From Arthrobacter sp. zg-Y769 (GTDB taxonomy: Bacteria; Actinomycetota; Actinomycetes; Actinomycetales; Micrococcaceae), in the NCBI RefSeq assembly GCF_020907405.1, contig NZ_JAJJOE010000007.1:124001-188000 (forward strand): DNA of 64,000 bases. Reading direction: 5' to 3'. The notes under the pieces are model-generated. The model was not told the DNA's origin, did not search any database, and was given only the letters and a program-made list of their open reading frames with translations. The position numbers and the translations under genes were made by a program. This document shows, piece by piece, positions 10,417 to 64,000 of this stretch; positions within the stretch are counted from its first letter, which is position 1, and each line of letters starts with the position of its first letter.

Positions 10417-10460
10417 AAAGCCCCGGCCGCCCGCTGTGGATAACGGGGGACCGGGGCTTT
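10417..10460 (-). terminator. Terminator after the DUF349 gene
   Basis: AAAGCCCCGG (10417-10426) pairs with CCGGGGCTTT (10451-10460) around a 24-base loop. Read on the minus strand it is followed by a T-rich tail (CTTTTACTTTG), as expected 22 bases beyond the DUF349 stop. Confidence 0.6.
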
Positions 10461-57341: not shown

Positions 57342-58865
57342 ATGCCTGACAATCCCAGGTACATCATCGCCATCGACCAGGGCACCACCAGCAGCCGTGC
57401 AATTGTTTTCGGCCACGACGGAAACATCGTTTCCACCGGGCAGAAGGAACACGAGCAGATCTTCCCGCACGCGGGCTGGGTGGAGCACGATCCGATGGAG
57501 ATCTGGACGAACGTCCGCGAGGTCGTGGGCAGTGCCCTGTCCAAGGCCAACCTGACCCGGCACGACATTGCCGCCGTCGGAATCACGAACCAGCGTGAAA
57601 CGGCCGTTGTCTGGGACCGCAACACGGGCGAGCCCGTCTACAACGCAATTGTCTGGCAGGACACCCGCACGCAGCCCATCGTCAACGAGCTGGCGGCAAA
57701 CGGCGGACTGGACCGCTTCAAGGACACCGTTGGCCTGCCGCTGGCGACATACTTCTCCGGCACGAAGATCAAGTGGATCCTGGACAACGTAGAGGGGGCA
57801 CGTGAACGGGCAGAGGCGGGGGACCTCATGTTCGGCAACACGGACTCCTGGATTGTCTGGAACCTGACCGGCGGGACGGACGGCGGCGTGCACATCACCG
57901 ACGTCACCAACGCTTCGCGCACCCTGTTTATGAACCTCGAGACGCTCACCTGGGATGAGGACATCCTCAAGGAGTTCGGTATTCCGCGGTCGATGCTGCC
58001 GGAAATCAAGTCCTCCTCCGAGGTCTACGGCATAGTTGCCGGCTCCCAGCTGCTGCGGGAAACCCCGGTGGCAGGCATCCTCGGTGACCAGCAGGCCGCA
58101 ACGTTCGGCCAGGCGGCGTTCGAAAAGGGCAACGCCAAGAACACCTACGGGACCGGTTGCTTCCTGATCTTCAACACCGGTGAGGAAATTGTCCGTTCCG
58201 AGAACGGGCTCATCACCACCGTGGCCTACCAGCTGGGCGACGCCAAGCCGGTTTACGCGCTTGAAGGTTCCATTGCCGTCACCGGTTCCCTGGTCCAGTG
58301 GCTCCGCGACAACCTGGGCATCATCAACAGCGCCCCGGAGATCGAAGAGCTCGCCCGCAAGGTGGACGACAACGGCGGCGTGTACATCGTGCCCGCGTTC
58401 TCCGGACTCTTCGCACCGTACTGGCGTGCAGATGCGCGCGGTGCGATGGTGGGCCTGACCCGTTACGTGAACAAGAACCACATTGCCCGGGCCGCACTGG
58501 AAGCCACCGCCTTCCAGACCCGGGAAGTGCTCGACGCCGTGAACGCTGACTCCGGTGTCCCGCTGACGGAACTGCGCGTAGACGGCGGCATGGTCGCCAA
58601 CGATGCCCTGATGCAGTTCCAGGCAGACATCCTCGGCGTCGACGTCGTCCGGCCCAAGGTCATCGAGACCACCGCACTGGGTGCCGCTTACGCGGCCGGC
58701 CTGGCTGTCGGTTTCTGGAACGGCACCGACGAGCTCGAGCAGAACTGGGCTGAAGGCAAACGCTGGATCCCGCAGATGGAAGAATCCGAACGTGACCGCC
58801 AGATGCGCCTCTGGAAGAAGGCCGTCACCAAGACCTTCGACTGGGTTGACGACGACGTTCAGTAA
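57342..58865 (+). CDS. glpK: Glycerol kinase
   Basis: A 507-residue FGGY-family kinase making glycerol 3-phosphate. Signatures are [15 protein letters not shown] (about 6-20), the glycerol-site stretch [26 protein letters not shown] and [21 protein letters not shown] precedes ATG 57342. The kinase traps the glycerol brought in by GlpF. A strong terminator follows. Confidence 0.97.
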
Positions 58866-58886
58866 TTCGAAGGCAGACTAGTAGTG

Positions 58887-58919
58887 AAAGGCCCCGGCAG
58901 CGAGACTGCCGGGGCCTTT
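58887..58919 (+). terminator. Terminator after glpK
   Basis: AAAGGCCCCGGCAG (58887-58900) pairs perfectly with CTGCCGGGGCCTTT (58906-58919) around a CGAGA loop. Confidence 0.85.
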
Positions 58920-58991
58920 CGCTTCCCCCGCTCGGGCGGGGTCGGTTTGACGGGCACATCAACCCTTCGGTACCGTTCGGGCAGCATCGAC

Positions 58992-59007
58992 GGTGATGCA
59001 GGTCACA
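58992..59007. promoter_or_regulatory. CRP-like palindrome before the monooxygenase gene
   Basis: GGTGATGCAGGTCACA has GTGA-N6-TCAC symmetry and matches nine of the ten half-site bases of the CRP/GlxR-type consensus TGTGA-N6-TCACA. It lies 13 bases before the chosen GTG, so binding would more likely repress than activate. Confidence 0.3.
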
Positions 59008-59020
59008 GAAGCAGGTGGAA

Positions 59021-60373
59021 GTGTCTCCCGCAGCAAACTTTGTACGATCGGAACTGCCTGTCGCCGTTATCGGCGCCGGACCCAGCGGCCTTGCCGCCAT
59101 GCGGGCCCTATCCAGGCAGGGCCTCGCTTTTGTCGGCTTTGAGCGGCATACCGACGTCGGCGGACTCTGGAATATCGAGAATCCGGCCAGTACGGTCTAC
59201 GAATCGGCCCACCTGATCTCGTCGAAATCCACTACGCAGTTTGCCGAATTCCCCATGCCGGAGGGCACCCCCGACTACCCCGGGCACCGCCATCTCCAGG
59301 CCTATTTCCGGTCCTACGCCGACCGCTTCCAGCTGCGTCGGTCCATCCGGTTCGGTGTCCGGGTCACCGCAGCGGTGCCGTCCGAGGACGGCGCGTGGAT
59401 GGTGTCCTGGGAGGGCGCCGACGGACCGGACAGCGGACGGTTCAGTGCTGTCATCGTCGCTTCGGGCACCCTGCACACCCCGGCAATTCCCACCCTGCCC
59501 GGGCAGTTCAGCGGCGAGATCCGCCACTCGGCGTCCTACAAAAACCCCCGGGAACTCTCCGGAAAGCGCGTGCTGATTGTTGGAGCCGGCAACAGCGGCT
59601 GCGACCTGGCCGTGGACGCCGTCCACCACGCCGCCTCCGTCGACATCAGCGTCCGGCGGGGTTACTACTTCATTCCCAAGTACGTCTTCGGCCGGCCCAC
59701 CGACACCCTGAACCAGGGAAAGCCGCTGCCCCGGCCGCTGAAGCAGTTCTTCGACAAGCGGCTGCTGCGCATGTTCACCGGAGACCCGCGCCGCTTCGGC
59801 TTCCCGAAACCCGACCACCGCATCTACGAATCCCACCCCGTGGTGAACTCCCTGATCCTGCACCATCTGGGACACGGGGATCTTCAGGTCAAGGGCGACA
59901 TTGCCCGGCTGGACGGGCACACCGTTCACTTCCGGGACGGAACCTCGGGGGAGTACGACCTCCTTCTCCTTGCCACGGGCTACGTGCTGGACTATCCGTT
60001 CCTGGACCCGGCGCTGCTTGGCTGGGACGGCCCGTCGCCGTCGTTGTACCTGAACATGTTCAGCCGCCAGGCGGAGAACCTGCTCGTGATCGGCATGGTG
60101 GAGGCCTCGGGCCTGGGCTGGGAGGGCAGGTTCCGGCAGGCCGAACTGGCGGCCGCCTACCTGGCCGCCCAAAAACGCGACCCGGAGTCCGCCGGGGAGT
60201 TCCGGCAGCTGCTGGCCGGAGAATCACCGGATGTCACCGGCGGTTACCGCTATCTGGGCCTGGACCGGATGAGCTACTACGTCAACAAGGACGCCTACCG
60301 TGCCGAACTTGAAGCGCACCTGGAGCGGCTGGCGTCAGCCGGGTCCGCAGCGCGTGAAGAGGCGAACCGCTGA
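59021..60373 (+). CDS. Flavin-containing monooxygenase-like NAD(P)/FAD protein
   Basis: About 450 residues (451 or 449 with the nearby GTG starts at 59015 and 59021; neither has an ideal ribosome binding site). FAD loop VIGAGPSGLAA (about 18-28), the FMO fingerprint FSGEIRHSASY (about 163-173, FxGxxxHxxxY) and NADPH loop VGAGNSGCDLAV follow the class B monooxygenase order; LLLATGY sits near the end of the core. Such enzymes oxygenate N, S or ketone groups. The stop overlaps the start of a BASS transporter gene, implying a shared pathway. The substrate is unknown. Confidence 0.88.
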   Translation: MSPAANFVRSELPVAVIGAGPSGLAAMRALSRQGLAFVGFERHTDVGGLWNIENPASTVYESAHLISSKSTTQFAEFPMPEGTPDYPGHRHLQAYFRSYADRFQLRRSIRFGVRVTAAVPSEDGAWMVSWEGADGPDSGRFSAVIVASGTLHTPAIPTLPGQFSGEIRHSASYKNPRELSGKRVLIVGAGNSGCDLAVDAVHHAASVDISVRRGYYFIPKYVFGRPTDTLNQGKPLPRPLKQFFDKRLLRMFTGDPRRFGFPKPDHRIYESHPVVNSLILHHLGHGDLQVKGDIARLDGHTVHFRDGTSGEYDLLLLATGYVLDYPFLDPALLGWDGPSPSLYLNMFSRQAENLLVIGMVEASGLGWEGRFRQAELAAAYLAAQKRDPESAGEFRQLLAGESPDVTGGYRYLGLDRMSYYVNKDAYRAELEAHLERLASAGSAAREEANR

Positions 60374-61311
60374 TGCCCATTGACGACGTCGTCCTGAGCT
60401 TTACGCCTGCCTCGCTGCTGATCCTGAACGTAGTGCTGGCGGTGATTATCCTTGGCATCGCCCTCGAAGTACGTCCGGCGGATTTCCGCACCGTGGCGCG
60501 CAGCCCAAAGGCGGTGCTGCTGGGAATCGGCGCCCAGTACCTGGTGCTTCCCGCCGTGACGGTCGGGCTGGCGCTCCTCCTGCAGGTCCCGGCATCGATT
60601 GCCCTGGGCATGATCCTCGTGGCCTGCTGTCCGCCCGGGGGCATCTCCAACGTCCTGACACACCGGGCGCACGGCAATGTTGCCCTGTCCGCTTCCATGA
60701 CCGCTGTCTCGAACCTGGTGGCCATCGCCGTGATGCCGCTGAATGTGGCGCTGTGGGCGCGGCTGAATCCGGCCACTGCCGGGCTGATGCGGGACTTCTC
60801 CCTGGACCGCTGGGAAATGCTGATCCAGGTCCTGCTCATCATCGGCGTGCCCTTTGCCGTGGGCATGCCGCTGGCCCGTCGCTTCCCCGCGGTGACCGAC
60901 ATCCTGCGGCCCTGGGTACAGCGGATAGGCCTGGTGGCCCTGCTTGTATTCATTGTCGCCGGGACAGCCAGCAACCTTGGCCCGCTCCGCGAGCATCTCG
61001 GGACCATCTTCCTGATCGTGCTGCTGCATGACGCGGTGGCACTGGCTGTGGGCTACTGGACGGCGGCGGCGGTGCGGCTGGATGAACCCAGCCGGCGGGC
61101 GTTTACCTTCGAAGTCGGCGCCCGCAACACCGGACTCGGGCTCGGCCTGACTCTAACCTTCTTTGCCGGTCTGGGCGGCATGGCCATGGTCGCCGCCTGG
61201 TGGGGCATCTGGGACATCCTGGCCGGACTGCTGCTGGCGGCCTGGTGGCGACGGCGTGACGCACGCCGCGGTTCGCCGGCCCCGGCCGCGGAGCGGGGGA
61301 CAGGACGATGA
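60373..61311 (+). CDS. BASS-family (bile acid:Na+ symporter-like) transporter
   Basis: A 312-residue polytopic protein with 9-10 hydrophobic spans and the BASS crossover motif VACCPPGGISNVLT (83-96). The family moves organic anions such as bile acids, pantoate or other carboxylates with sodium. Its ATG overlaps the monooxygenase stop by one base (TGATG), and its stop overlaps the SDR start (ATGA), so it is fully embedded in the operon. The direction of transport and substrate are not visible. Confidence 0.88.
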   Translation: MPIDDVVLSFTPASLLILNVVLAVIILGIALEVRPADFRTVARSPKAVLLGIGAQYLVLPAVTVGLALLLQVPASIALGMILVACCPPGGISNVLTHRAHGNVALSASMTAVSNLVAIAVMPLNVALWARLNPATAGLMRDFSLDRWEMLIQVLLIIGVPFAVGMPLARRFPAVTDILRPWVQRIGLVALLVFIVAGTASNLGPLREHLGTIFLIVLLHDAVALAVGYWTAAAVRLDEPSRRAFTFEVGARNTGLGLGLTLTFFAGLGGMAMVAAWWGIWDILAGLLLAAWWRRRDARRGSPAPAAERGTGR

Positions 61312-62264
61312 CCCGGGTCTGCGTGACCGGCGGCAACGGCTTCCTGGGCAGTGCGGTGGTCGCCGGATTGGCGGACCATCCGGAGATTTCGCATGTCCTC
61401 AGCCTCGACATCCGGGAACCCGCGGAGGAACGCCGGCTCGCCGGGGTCGAGTACGCCCTCGCGGATGTATGTTCCCCGGACGTGGCGCGGCTGCTGCAGG
61501 CGCACCGGATCGACACCGTGGTCCATCTTGCCGCCATCGTGAATCCGGGAAAGCACACCACGCGGGAACAGGAATTCTCGGTGGACGTGGTGGGCTCACG
61601 GAATGTCCTGGCGGCCTGCATTTCCTCCGGGGTGAAGCACGTGGTCATTTCCTCTTCCGGCGCCGCCTACGGCTACCACCCGGACAACCCCCCGTGGCTG
61701 AAGGAATCCGATGCGCTCCGCGGCAATGACGAGTTTGCCTACTCCCGGCATAAACGGCTGGTCGAGGAGGAGCTGGCAAGGGTCCGCGAAGAACATCCCG
61801 AGCTGCAGCAGACCATCTTCCGGATCGGCACCATCCTCGGCGAGCGGGTCCGCAACCAGATCACGGCCCTTTTCGACGCACCGAAGCTGCTGCGGGTAGC
61901 CGGCAGCGACTCCCCGTTTGTGTTCATCTGGGACGAAGACGTGGCCGGCATCATGGTCCAGGCCGTCGTCACGGGACGCAGCGGCATCTTCAACGTTGCC
62001 GGAGACGGTGCCCTGACTGTGCGGGAGATAGCGGGACTGCTGGGACGCGGCACCGTCACGGTTCCGGCACCCGTCCTGGCTGCCGCGCTCTGGCTGGGTC
62101 ACCTGCTGCGGCTGACCGTCCACGGTCCCGAACAGGTGCGGTTCCTGCGCTACCGGCCGGTGCTGGACAACACCGCACTCAAGCAGGAGTTCGGCTTTAC
62201 TCCTTCCCGCACCAGCAGGGAAGCGTTCCTCGCGTTCCGGGCAGCGCGGGACACGGCCGGCTAA
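61308..62264 (+). CDS. Extended SDR (NAD-dependent epimerase/dehydratase-like)
   Basis: A 318-residue extended short-chain dehydrogenase with TGGNGFLG (7-14), VVHLAAIVNP, catalytic Ser in ISSSGAAYG and Y145-K149 in YSRHK. The substrate part (about 190-318) resembles sugar epimerases or 3-beta-hydroxysteroid dehydrogenase-like reductases without pinning either. The ATG overlaps the transporter stop. Third gene of the monooxygenase/transporter/SDR operon. Confidence 0.88.
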   Translation: MTRVCVTGGNGFLGSAVVAGLADHPEISHVLSLDIREPAEERRLAGVEYALADVCSPDVARLLQAHRIDTVVHLAAIVNPGKHTTREQEFSVDVVGSRNVLAACISSGVKHVVISSSGAAYGYHPDNPPWLKESDALRGNDEFAYSRHKRLVEEELARVREEHPELQQTIFRIGTILGERVRNQITALFDAPKLLRVAGSDSPFVFIWDEDVAGIMVQAVVTGRSGIFNVAGDGALTVREIAGLLGRGTVTVPAPVLAAALWLGHLLRLTVHGPEQVRFLRYRPVLDNTALKQEFGFTPSRTSREAFLAFRAARDTAG

Positions 62265-62315
62265 AGCTCCCGCGGCTCACCCGGGCACACTGGCTTCGAG
62301 GGCCGTGTGCTGTTG

Positions 62316-62321
62316 TAAAGT
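62316..62321 (+). promoter_or_regulatory. -10 box of the leuS leader
   Basis: TAAAGT is followed by GGAGAA and the ATG of the leader peptide, the six-base leaderless spacing seen elsewhere in the window. If transcription starts a few bases earlier, GGAGAA could act as a ribosome binding site. Confidence 0.55.
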
Positions 62322-62327
62322 GGAGAA

Positions 62328-62354
62328 ATGATCGCAGTTCTCCTCCTTAGCTAG
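62328..62354 (+). CDS. Leucine-rich leader peptide (8 aa) of leuS
   Basis: ATG, then codons for Ile-Ala-Val-Leu-Leu-Leu-Ser and TAG. Three consecutive Leu codons (CTC CTC CTT, 62340-62348) in an eight-residue frame directly upstream of leucyl-tRNA synthetase are the hallmark of ribosome-mediated attenuation: slow translation when Leu-tRNA is short would change folding of the RNA behind the ribosome. It is followed at once by a stable hairpin and an intrinsic terminator. The peptide itself is not expected to have another function. Confidence 0.7.
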   Translation: MIAVLLLS

Positions 62355-62376
62355 CCGCGCACCGTCCGTGCGCGGC
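62354..62376 (+). promoter_or_regulatory. First hairpin of the leuS attenuator
   Basis: GCCGCGCAC (62354-62362) pairs with GTGCGCGGC (62368-62376) around CGTCC. It starts on the stop codon of the leader peptide, so a ribosome paused on the Leu codons would cover its 5' arm. I could not find a convincing antiterminator pairing between this arm and the terminator. Confidence 0.6.
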
Positions 62377-62377
62377 C

Positions 62378-62402
62378 GCCCCTTGCTTGTCGAGGGGCTT
62401 TT
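62378..62402 (+). terminator. Intrinsic terminator in the leuS leader
   Basis: GCCCCT (62378-62383) pairs with AGGGGC (62393-62398), followed directly by TTTTGTGTG. It stands 94 bases before leuS and 24 bases after the leader-peptide stop, the usual place for an attenuator terminator. Confidence 0.65.
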
Positions 62403-62408
62403 GTGTGT

Positions 62409-62453
62409 CTGGGGAGGACCCAAAAATTTAAGGGCCGGATTTACCGCCGGCCC
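62409..62453 (+). promoter_or_regulatory. Downstream segments of the leuS leader RNA
   Basis: CTGGGGAGGA (62409-62418) can pair over 10 bases (two of them G-U) with the Leu-codon stretch 62341-62350, bracketing the first hairpin and the terminator. GGGCCGG/CCGGCCC (62432-62438 with 62447-62453) forms another 7-bp hairpin before leuS. Both suggest a structured regulatory RNA; roles are not assigned. Confidence 0.4.
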
Positions 62454-62495
62454 GCAGCGCGGATCGATTTTCTTTGAGGACAGAGGCGAAGCATA

Positions 62496-64000
62496 GTGAG
62501 CACGCAGTCACAGACTGATCAGCAGGAAGAGGCCGTCTACAGTTTCGCGGCCATCGAGCAGAAATGGCCGAAGGTCTGGGATGACCTCGGCGTTTTCACC
62601 CCTGCCGACGACGGCTCGCGCGAACGGCGCTATGTACTGGACATGTTCCCGTACCCCTCCGGCGACCTGCACATGGGCCACGCCGAGGCGTTCGCGATGG
62701 GCGACGTCGTCGCCCGTTACTGGCGCCAGCTCGGGTACGACGTGCTGCACCCGATCGGCTGGGACTCCTTCGGCCTGCCCGCCGAGAACGCGGCCATCAA
62801 GAACAACGCGCACCCCAGCGACTGGACCTACCGCAACATCGAGACCCAGGCGGAGTCCTTCAAGCGCTACGCCATCAGCGTTGACTGGTCCCGCCGGATC
62901 CACACGTCGGACCCCGAGTACTACCGCTGGACCCAGTGGCTGTTCACCCGCTTCTACGAGCGCGGCCTGGCCTACCGGAAGAATTCCCCGGTCAACTGGT
63001 GCCCCAAGGACCAGACCGTGCTGGCCAACGAACAGGTGGTCAACGGTGCCTGCGAACGCTGCGGCACCCAGGTCACGAAGAAGTCGCTGAACCAGTGGTA
63101 CTTCAAGATCACCGATTACGCCGACCGCCTGCTCGATGACATGGAACAGCTCAAGGGCCACTGGCCCGAGCGGGTCCTGGCCATGCAGAAAAACTGGATC
63201 GGCCGCTCTGAGGGCGCCCACGTCCGGTTCAACATCGAGGCCGAGGGCGGCAAACCCGCCGAGCAGGTCACCGTCTTCACCACCCGCCCGGACACCCTGG
63301 CCGGCGCCACCTTCTTCGTCGTCGCCGCGGACGCCCCGCTGGCACTGGACCTGGTGACGGATGAAAACCGCGACTCGCTGCTGGACTACCGCGAATCGGT
63401 GAAGGCACTCTCGGACATCGAGCGCCAGTCCACCGAACGCGTCAAGACCGGCATCTTCACCGGCCGGTACGCCGTGAACCCGCTGAACGGCGAAAAGCTG
63501 CCCGTCTGGGCCGCCGACTATGTGCTGGCCGACTACGGCACCGGCGCCATCATGGCCGTCCCGGCGCACGACCAGCGTGACCTGGACTTCGCCAAGACCT
63601 TCGACCTGCCCGTCAAGGCTGTCCTGGACACCGGCGAAGAGGATCCCGCCGTCAGCGGTGTTGCCACCACCGGCGAAGGCACCCTGATCAACTCCGGCGC
63701 ACTGGACGGCCTGCCCAAGGCCGAGGCCATTCCCGCCGCTGTCCGGATGCTCGAGGAACAGGGCACCGGCGAGAAGTTCGTGAACTTCCGCCTGCGTGAC
63801 TGGCTGCTGTCCCGGCAGCGTTTCTGGGGCACCCCCATCCCGATCATCCACTGCGAGAACTGCGGCGAGGTTCCGGTCCCCGATGACCAGCTGCCCGTCA
63901 CGCTGCCCACCGGGCTGCGCGGTGAAGCACTGGCACCGAAGGGCACCTCCCCGCTGGCCTCCGCCGAGGACTGGGTCAACGTGGCCTGCCCGAAGTGCGA
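62496..64000 (+). CDS. leuS: Leucyl-tRNA synthetase (5' part)
   Basis: The first 501 codons of a class I synthetase run to the right edge of the window. HIGH motif DLHMGH (57-62) lies in [32 protein letters not shown] and a zinc-site segment [15 protein letters not shown]...CERCG follow, then the CP1 editing domain with [15 protein letters not shown] and [19 protein letters not shown] 62496 has GAGG upstream. The KMSKS end is outside the window. Upstream leader sequences suggest transcription attenuation by leucine supply. Confidence 0.97.

Follow-up and report, generated by a model that had tools for sequence, protein, structure and literature searches.

The window, by which we mean the whole 64,000-nucleotide stretch that was analysed, ends within a leuS gene (leucine--tRNA ligase, start GTG, 62496..63998, forward strand) that extends beyond it and whose product passes the TIGR00396 model with 659.9 bits against a cut-off of 548.4. 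We presumed leuS to be the regulated gene. An epimerase-like gene (61308-62264) lies upstream on the same strand, and the region between the two holds a compact series of elements, all on the forward strand. A candidate -10 box, TAAAGT (62316..62321), is separated by a 6-nt spacer (62322-62327) from the start codon of a short leader frame (62328..62354; ATG ATC GCA GTT CTC CTC CTT AGC TAG), which encodes MIAVLLLS and carries three Leu codons, CTC CTC CTT, at 62340-62348. This promoter spacing would put a transcription start at or next to the leader ATG and makes the transcript a candidate leaderless one. The leader is followed by a 9-bp hairpin, hp1 (62354..62376), whose first paired base is the G that ends the stop codon TAG and which we regard, from covariation in 43 chosen sequences, as a putative sensor hairpin. 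An intrinsic terminator found by scanning (62378..62402; 8-bp stem at 62378-62398, T4 at 62399-62402) starts 1 nt past hp1 and ends 93 nt before the leuS GTG. After the T-run comes GTGTGTC (62403..62409), which is identical in 29/29 genomes of the genus and has similar counterparts (TGTGTC, CATGTC) in many relatives. A preliminary description of this DNA had listed TAAAGT-N6-ATG, the Leu frame, the 9-bp hairpin on the stop codon and the terminator with T4, and each of them was found exactly where it had been placed.

Rfam was scanned over positions 58000-64000 up to E 10, and all nine matches fell under their gathering scores and were taken as chance; no T-box match before leuS was among them. 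The match to anti-hemB at 62352-62475 (23.8 bits, gathering score 49.5) was likewise discarded as chance. The same applies to the score of the weak matches at 58883-58923, all under their gathering scores, where the window has a long GC-rich hairpin between T and A runs, perhaps a two-way terminator.

We found leuS in 29 of the 29 genus genomes searched, and in all of them, the window's own genome included, the layout of leader, hp1 and terminator stands upstream of it; this set was not preselected for Leu codons. The -10 box is TAAAGT in 28 of the 29 and TACAGT in the other (L033), and at least three consecutive Leu codons are present in 28 of the 29 leaders, the remaining one (L030) having CTC AAC CTT. 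At the tip of hp1 both sides change together. The sequence before the promoter varies much more, as does the stretch from the terminator to the leuS start region.

For wider searches we used a covariance model, R1, which was made from 43 leaders, the window's own among them and 39 from the window's family. R1 scores the window leader at 90.1 bits, its sole match up to E 10 in the 64 kb, and gives one strong match per genome in 29/29 genus genomes, with the best 150 candidates per genome scored. The only other match in the genus set (G000:C14:28185-28259, in the window's own genome) has an E-value of 0.75 and is probably due to chance.

A search of 120 family genomes found leuS in all but one (119), and 142 leuS upstream regions were examined, the 29 of the genus among them. 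The family scan demanded a TA...T or TA...C box, an ATG or GTG placed for a leaderless start, and a short frame carrying two or more Leu codons towards its end; the box at a set distance is itself a selection criterion in the leader scans. The scan was passed by 79 regions (29 of the genus and 50 others) and failed by 63, 16 of which fit a loose terminator pattern; about 15 of these 16 look, by eye, like reduced or altered forms of the element. The other 48 regions had nothing recognisable, two of them (L067 and L132) being cut by a contig end. The leuS leader element is missing in several genera of the family. Two groups of loci differ in form: five of one genus (g24; L079, L084, L087, L088, L094) have one CTA Leu codon (e.g. 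in MYSQRDLV), a small hairpin and a terminator, and three of another (g29; L052, L054, L059) have no hp1, the stop codon of their leader MAYFLG being inside the terminator 5' arm.

A further set comprised 126 leuS upstream regions, i.e. 80 named records and 46 loci, and 41 of them passed a similar scan that additionally demands a terminator. Ten of the 41 belong to named Arthrobacter or Pseudarthrobacter, and the others include Nocardioides, Marmoricola, Nonomuraea and Thermoactinospora; examples of the leaders are MRRTLLLT, MRSQILLLRQPR and VRTGLLLTEPR.

In the class, R1 had a match at E<=0.1 in 45 of 98 genomes, with the best 47 candidates per genome scored. A tblastn search found leuS somewhere within the fetched stretch at 28 of 30 R1 loci, which were the best 30 of 50 class matches. 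At one of the two loci lacking leuS (L291) the element, with the leader VARLFSLLLNLPR, is near a contig end; at the other (L304) it precedes a citramalate synthase-like gene, whose best NCBIfam match is TIGR00977, with 372 bits on a partial reading, under the cut-off of 450. Three loci with leuS (L296, L300 and L303; R1 E-values 8.1e-7, 2.0e-6 and 8.2e-6) have the leader MRAVRLLLSEPR, identical to the leuL2 peptide of Streptomyces lividans as printed in PMC8079986. Judged by these matches, the window element and the Streptomyces leuS element are of common ancestry. In the phylum, matches at E<=0.01 were obtained in 11 of 119 genomes, with the best 39 candidates per genome scored; R1 is less sensitive outside the class, and this survey demonstrates presence and cannot prove absence.

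The leader was then considered codon by codon. Of the distinct family leaders with 8 codons, 51 in number, 49 have Leu at codon 5, 43 at codon 6 and all 51 at codon 7, counts that are inflated because these leaders were preselected for at least two Leu near the end. The Leu codons 5-7 are written variously as CTC, CTT, CTG, CTA and TTG, and codons 2-4 and 8 vary in amino acid. Such synonymous changes at a fixed Leu register, as read from the alignment, are not explained by the preselection. CTT makes up 41.4% and CTG 16.8% of 292 Leu codons in 99 leaders, against 13.7% and 55.9% in 37 long ORFs of the window, a rough comparison given that the ORFs are the longest non-overlapping frames, hence putative genes, and that the leaders come from many genomes. 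CTC and CTT are presumably read by one shared tRNA. The leader is probably translated and Leu-sensing, as far as codon patterns can tell. Its stop codon stands where relatives have GAG, CAG or GGG, followed by CCG CG. In two pairs of loci (L240 and L263, L001 and L296) the stop codon shifts and the hairpin arm stays.

Covariation was assessed in an alignment, A1, which is a chosen set: 43 of 59 sequences with an hp1 span of <=32 nt, after leaving out 3 near-duplicates, two g28 sequences and 11 distant forms. In these 43 chosen sequences both partners vary in 7 of the 9 hp1 pairs, with 92.4% of the cells paired, and 5 of the 8 terminator pairs are invariant. None of 500 shuffles reached the percentage paired, the doubly changed cells or the covariation score of hp1; the number of pairs changed on both sides was reached by 7 of the 500, and that of pair types by 78. 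The terminator sequence is nearly invariant across the family (GCCCCU..AGGGGC), often with the TGTGTC/CATGTC box after it, a constancy that exceeds the terminator's apparent needs.

The geometry was measured on 99 distinct leaders, obtained from 117 by merging those with the same frame and hp1 length. The length of hp1 ranges from 18 to 69 nt in these 99 sequences, and its 3' end is 0 nt from the terminator in 55, 1 nt in 37, 2 nt in 6 and 3 nt in 1. Counted from the first base of the last Leu codon, its 5' end comes 7 or 8 nt later in 89 of the 99; hp1 follows the first Leu codon at a distance of 13 or 14 nt in 90 of the 117 leaders. This is approximately how far the front of a ribosome should reach when its A site holds the first Leu codon. 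Both geometry features together occur in 85 of 99 leaders and in 151 of 1980 shuffles. A gap of 0-1 nt to some upstream hairpin occurs in 92 of 99 leaders, yet also in about 43% of shuffles, and it is the joint geometry, not the small gap by itself, that sets the leaders apart. An abutting hairpin of at least 5 bp was present in 88 of 99 leaders and in 1 of 19 other terminator-like sites, a small control sample from which stretches near matches were excluded and in which 4 of the 19 do not fold as a terminator; the single flush control hairpin is on the minus strand near 10460, after a gene end. The leader, its synonymously kept Leu codons, hp1, the terminator, their spacing and the wide conservation of the whole are thus matters that comparison of sequences has demonstrated.

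Seliverstov et al. 2005 predicted classical attenuators before leuS in S. avermitilis and S. coelicolor (PMC1262725), and in S. lividans TK24 the leuL2 leader is reported, from RNA-seq, as leaderless and followed by a hairpin and a uridine stretch (PMC8079986). The preliminary description had presented the leader-peptide attenuation of leuS as non-standard and the leaderless start of the frame as an added oddity; both views have to be given up, the first in the light of these two papers and the second in that of the leuL2 transcript (PMC1262725, PMC8079986). What characterises the actinobacterial leuL2 type, i.e. a Leu-run frame upstream of leuS and, between the two, a hairpin and then an intrinsic terminator with a U run, is found in the window as well. 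The likeness to the Streptomyces leader comprises the gene, a Leu-run leader reported there as leaderless, and the hairpin and U stretch; unlike leuL2 (PMC8079986), the window leader stops three codons earlier, and hp1 starts on the stop codon and not within the frame.

We consider the element to be a ribosome-mediated transcription attenuator of leuS, orthologous to the Streptomyces leuL2 leader, with a probability of roughly 0.8. Very probably, on the strength of the sequence comparisons, a leaderless leader peptide controls leuS by attenuation. In the mechanism that we propose, transcription would start at the leader ATG and a ribosome would initiate at that 5' end. With charged tRNA-Leu plentiful, the ribosome would pass the three Leu codons, reach the stop codon and cover the 5' arm of hp1, the terminator would form and leuS expression would be low. 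With charged tRNA-Leu scarce, it would halt at the first Leu codon, its front just short of hp1, which would then form and occupy all but 1 nt up to the terminator, and the polymerase would read into leuS. For this last step we suggest that hp1 and the parked ribosome might obstruct, sterically and with no pairing involved, the closing of the terminator in the polymerase exit channel; taken alone, the steric blocking is a tentative proposal, to which we would give somewhat less than even odds.

For leuS we infer the start site, the translation of the leader and the direction of the response. The last is taken over by analogy from ilvB1 of M. tuberculosis, whose induction was lost once its regulatory codons were replaced (PMC13236596), a result that supports the equation of stalling with read-through. 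Two points speak against the mechanism. The base of hp1 would be masked if the ribosome stalled at the last Leu codon (formed in 0 of 99 leaders) but not if it stalled at the first, and tandem hairpins can strengthen termination, as in M. smegmatis gyrA (cited in PMC8355165). That attenuation of leuS depends on the Leu codons, as the preliminary description had it, is well supported by the synonymous Leu codons, the covariation of hp1 and the recurrence with leuS in the class.

Folding was computed under three ribosome masks, which place the ribosome on the first Leu codon, the last Leu codon and the stop codon respectively. Equilibrium folding was done on 76 family sequences, three of g20 in which no terminator was found having been dropped from 79; for g27_L128 the hairpin used begins inside the leader. 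Under each of the three masks the terminator probability has a median of 0.98-0.99 and is at least 0.5 in 74 of the 76, and for the window sequence it is 0.99 whichever part of the leader is masked. The two others (g28_L066 and g28_L078), whose leaders are doubtful, have a presumed terminator that is unformed under any mask. When these two g28 sequences are set aside and the ribosome is absent, the terminator falls below 0.5 in 4 of 74 (g1_L024, g1_L026, g1_L031 and g8_L048); in g1_L024 the Leu run then pairs with the terminator 3' arm. In the further set, f35_L176 loses the terminator with no ribosome and f11_L166 loses it under the later masks.

We also used a co-transcriptional version, in which the RNA was cut before the terminator 3' arm; this is a calculation of secondary structure, and pseudoknots are outside its scope. 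As a control, E. coli trpL was folded in the same way: its terminator 5' arm is paired at 0.83 with the ribosome at the Trp codons and at 0.03 with the ribosome at the stop, so that the antiterminator is recovered. In the leuS leaders the median pairing of the terminator 5' arm is 0.17 with the ribosome at the first Leu codon (above 0.5 in 2 of 99), 0.36 at the last Leu codon (above 0.5 in 15) and 0.40 at the stop (above 0.5 in 19). It is hp1 that responds to the mask: a ribosome on the first Leu codon leaves its base formed (P>0.5) in 85 of 99 leaders, whereas a ribosome on the last Leu codon or on the stop leaves it formed in 0 of 99. Neither equilibrium nor co-transcriptional folding, at the level of secondary structure, found a trp-type strand-exchange antiterminator exclusive with the terminator. 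In the folding model hp1 and the terminator do not compete, so that base pairing fails to account for how a stall would lead to read-through. The element is known in kind, with a testable mechanical twist.

These results bear directly on the idea that we are dealing with a classical trp-type attenuator, whose antiterminator was missed by being a pseudoknot, tertiary or kinetically trapped pairing of the leader or hp1 with one arm of the terminator. The Streptomyces leuS elements have been described as classical ones that possess both an antiterminator and a terminator hairpin (PMC1262725), the 3' side of the terminator can pair with the P1 loop in the ilvB-II motif of Corynebacterium (PMC10272879), and the four sequences that drop below 0.5 with no ribosome, with the Leu run of g1_L024 on the terminator 3' arm, are compatible with it. 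The test validated on trpL, however, gave values that rise from the first Leu codon to the stop, the wrong direction for an antiterminator, and we regard this alternative as unlikely. The likeness to E. coli trpL lies in the regulatory codons, in the intrinsic terminator before the gene and presumably in the use of ribosome position as the signal, and the difference lies in the pairing, absent from the window leader, that sequesters the terminator 5' arm on stalling. Of what defines the trp type, codons of the amino acid concerned are present and an exclusive antiterminator was not found; for the latter reason we do not file the window leader as trp-type, though it may work like one.

The sign of the response could also be the reverse of the one we propose: hp1 and the terminator would form a tandem-hairpin terminator, in which hp1 strengthens termination and translation to the stop weakens it. 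The stability of hp1 agrees with this, and two tandem hairpins after M. smegmatis gyrA are said to outperform single ones in termination (cited in PMC8355165). Such a device would, however, reduce leuS just as charged tRNA-Leu runs short; in M. tuberculosis the ilvB1 reporter rises on inhibition of the enzyme, via regulatory codons (PMC13236596), and a flush hairpin of 5 bp or more is rare elsewhere, being present in 1 of the 19 other terminator-like sites examined. We judge the reversed sign improbable.

A direct effect of the ribosome, stalled or trailing, which would need no hairpin switch and would either hinder the terminator or drive the polymerase past it, is suggested by the three g29 loci lacking hp1, where a ribosome at the stop would cover the terminator 5' arm, and by the observation that a trailing ribosome can prevent termination in E. 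coli (PMC10135430). In the window, however, the terminator starts 23 nt past the stop codon, beyond the reach of a leader ribosome, and hp1 is maintained by compensatory change, so we give this explanation little credence. The g29 relatives fit a stalled ribosome standing against the terminator, but they are few and possibly decayed.

A G-rich 10-base segment downstream of the terminator (62409..62418, forward strand) is complementary to the Leu codons, and the preliminary description had pointed it out. The pairing is indeed there in the window (-15.4 kcal/mol, with 1 of 100 shuffles as good) and is not a conserved element: comparable pairing surpasses that of shuffles (p<=0.05) in 6 of the 15 distinct sequences from the genus and in 9 of the 84 others. 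In the alignment of relatives that had been proposed as a check, the Leu codons, hp1 and the terminator proved conserved, and the complementary segment did not hold outside the genus. As an antiterminator the segment was rejected, since it lies downstream of the terminator and its pairing is not conserved outside the genus; it is made after the termination decision, a role for it is not supported, and we judged it to be outside the switch. The same pairing might be thought to exert translational control in the manner of the actinobacterial leuA LEU element, where the Leu run pairs with the Shine-Dalgarno box (PMC1262725). No start codon stands at a usable distance after 62409-62418, however, leuS being 77 nt further, and with a pairing that is not conserved beyond the genus this is very improbable.

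That the locus holds no regulator at all, i.e. an end-of-gene terminator of the epimerase-like gene with a chance short frame, is scarcely credible: the terminator does sit between two same-strand genes, but the genus keeps promoter box, leader, Leu codons and spacing together as one unit, with far more variable sequence just upstream of the promoter, and the leader unit accompanies leuS in many class genomes.

The attenuator reading of leuS can be extended to other genes with the same layout. In 9 of 9 genus genomes ilvB is preceded by a leader of the form MQIV.VVL.KRVA and then by an hp1 that abuts the terminator (0 nt); an attenuator of this kind is probable for ilvB in the window's genus. 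Locus L317 and its eight sister loci (L311-L319) have, upstream of ilvB, the leader MQIVPVVLIKRVA or close variants. For cimA-like genes of class genomes, 9 leader peptides were hand-picked from 19 loci, some from internal starts, and 7 were found and folded; in these 7 upstream regions, with leaders such as VAQALIIG and VLHRTVIIIT, the gap between hp1 and the terminator is 0-1 nt. One of the seven (L322, MTKNAIT) has just one Ile codon. Ile-run leaders with this hairpin layout (VQSALIIT, VAQALIIG, VLHRTVIIIT) stand before citramalate synthase-like genes in several actinobacterial families (L304:1500-1585 and several of L320-L338). The regulatory codons match the gene, branched-chain amino acids before ilvB and Ile before the cimA-like genes. 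A ribosome placed on the first regulatory codon leaves the terminator 5' arm paired at no more than 0.34 in these 16 ilvB and cimA leaders. As far as they were checked for it from the start used, the ilvB and cimA leaders lack the TA...T box at the distance required for leuS. The sequence of hp1 is CCGCG.. before leuS and GGCGC.. in 6 of the 7 cimA cases, and this difference between genes points to a shared design more than to shared descent. It is possible, though we put it forward with more reserve than the blocking step itself, that this is a widespread actinobacterial attenuator design with no strand exchange, in which hp1 lies one ribosome footprint past the first regulatory codon, abuts the terminator (0-1 nt) and, once a stalled ribosome lets it form, blocks the terminator sterically, for Leu (leuS), branched-chain amino acids (ilvB) and Ile (cimA). 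Reportedly, Lopatovskaya et al. 2010 is a comparative paper on attenuation of aminoacyl-tRNA genes, and it may hold more.

Among known systems, Corynebacterium ilvB-II and M. tuberculosis ilvB1 likewise have a leader with regulatory codons, a hairpin over or after the frame and a terminator, but a mutually exclusive antiterminator was proposed there (PMC10272879, PMC13236596) and none was found at the window leader. The actinobacterial leuA LEU element shares the leader with a Leu-codon run and differs in the pairing of that run with the Shine-Dalgarno sequence and in bearing a pseudoknot (PMC1262725), which were not seen before leuS. The mycobacterial polycysteine uORFs (Canestrari 2020) are also leaderless short frames with a run of codons for the amino acid sensed; they concern cysteine genes and are reported to act by translation attenuation. 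In the literature searched, with figures and most subscription papers outside its scope, we found no description of an hp1 abutting the terminator with no strand exchange, and among the papers listed by a search on leaders of this gene none named citramalate synthase.

In a large soil lineage an essential tRNA synthetase gene is preceded by a probable leucine-sensing switch, and the 2005 prediction for Streptomyces becomes one instance of an old element present in many families of the class. The occurrence of the abutting-hairpin layout before three kinds of gene makes the question of antiterminator versus terminator testable by spacing. If the proposed mechanism is true, strand exchange would not be the sole way in which a stalled ribosome controls an intrinsic terminator.
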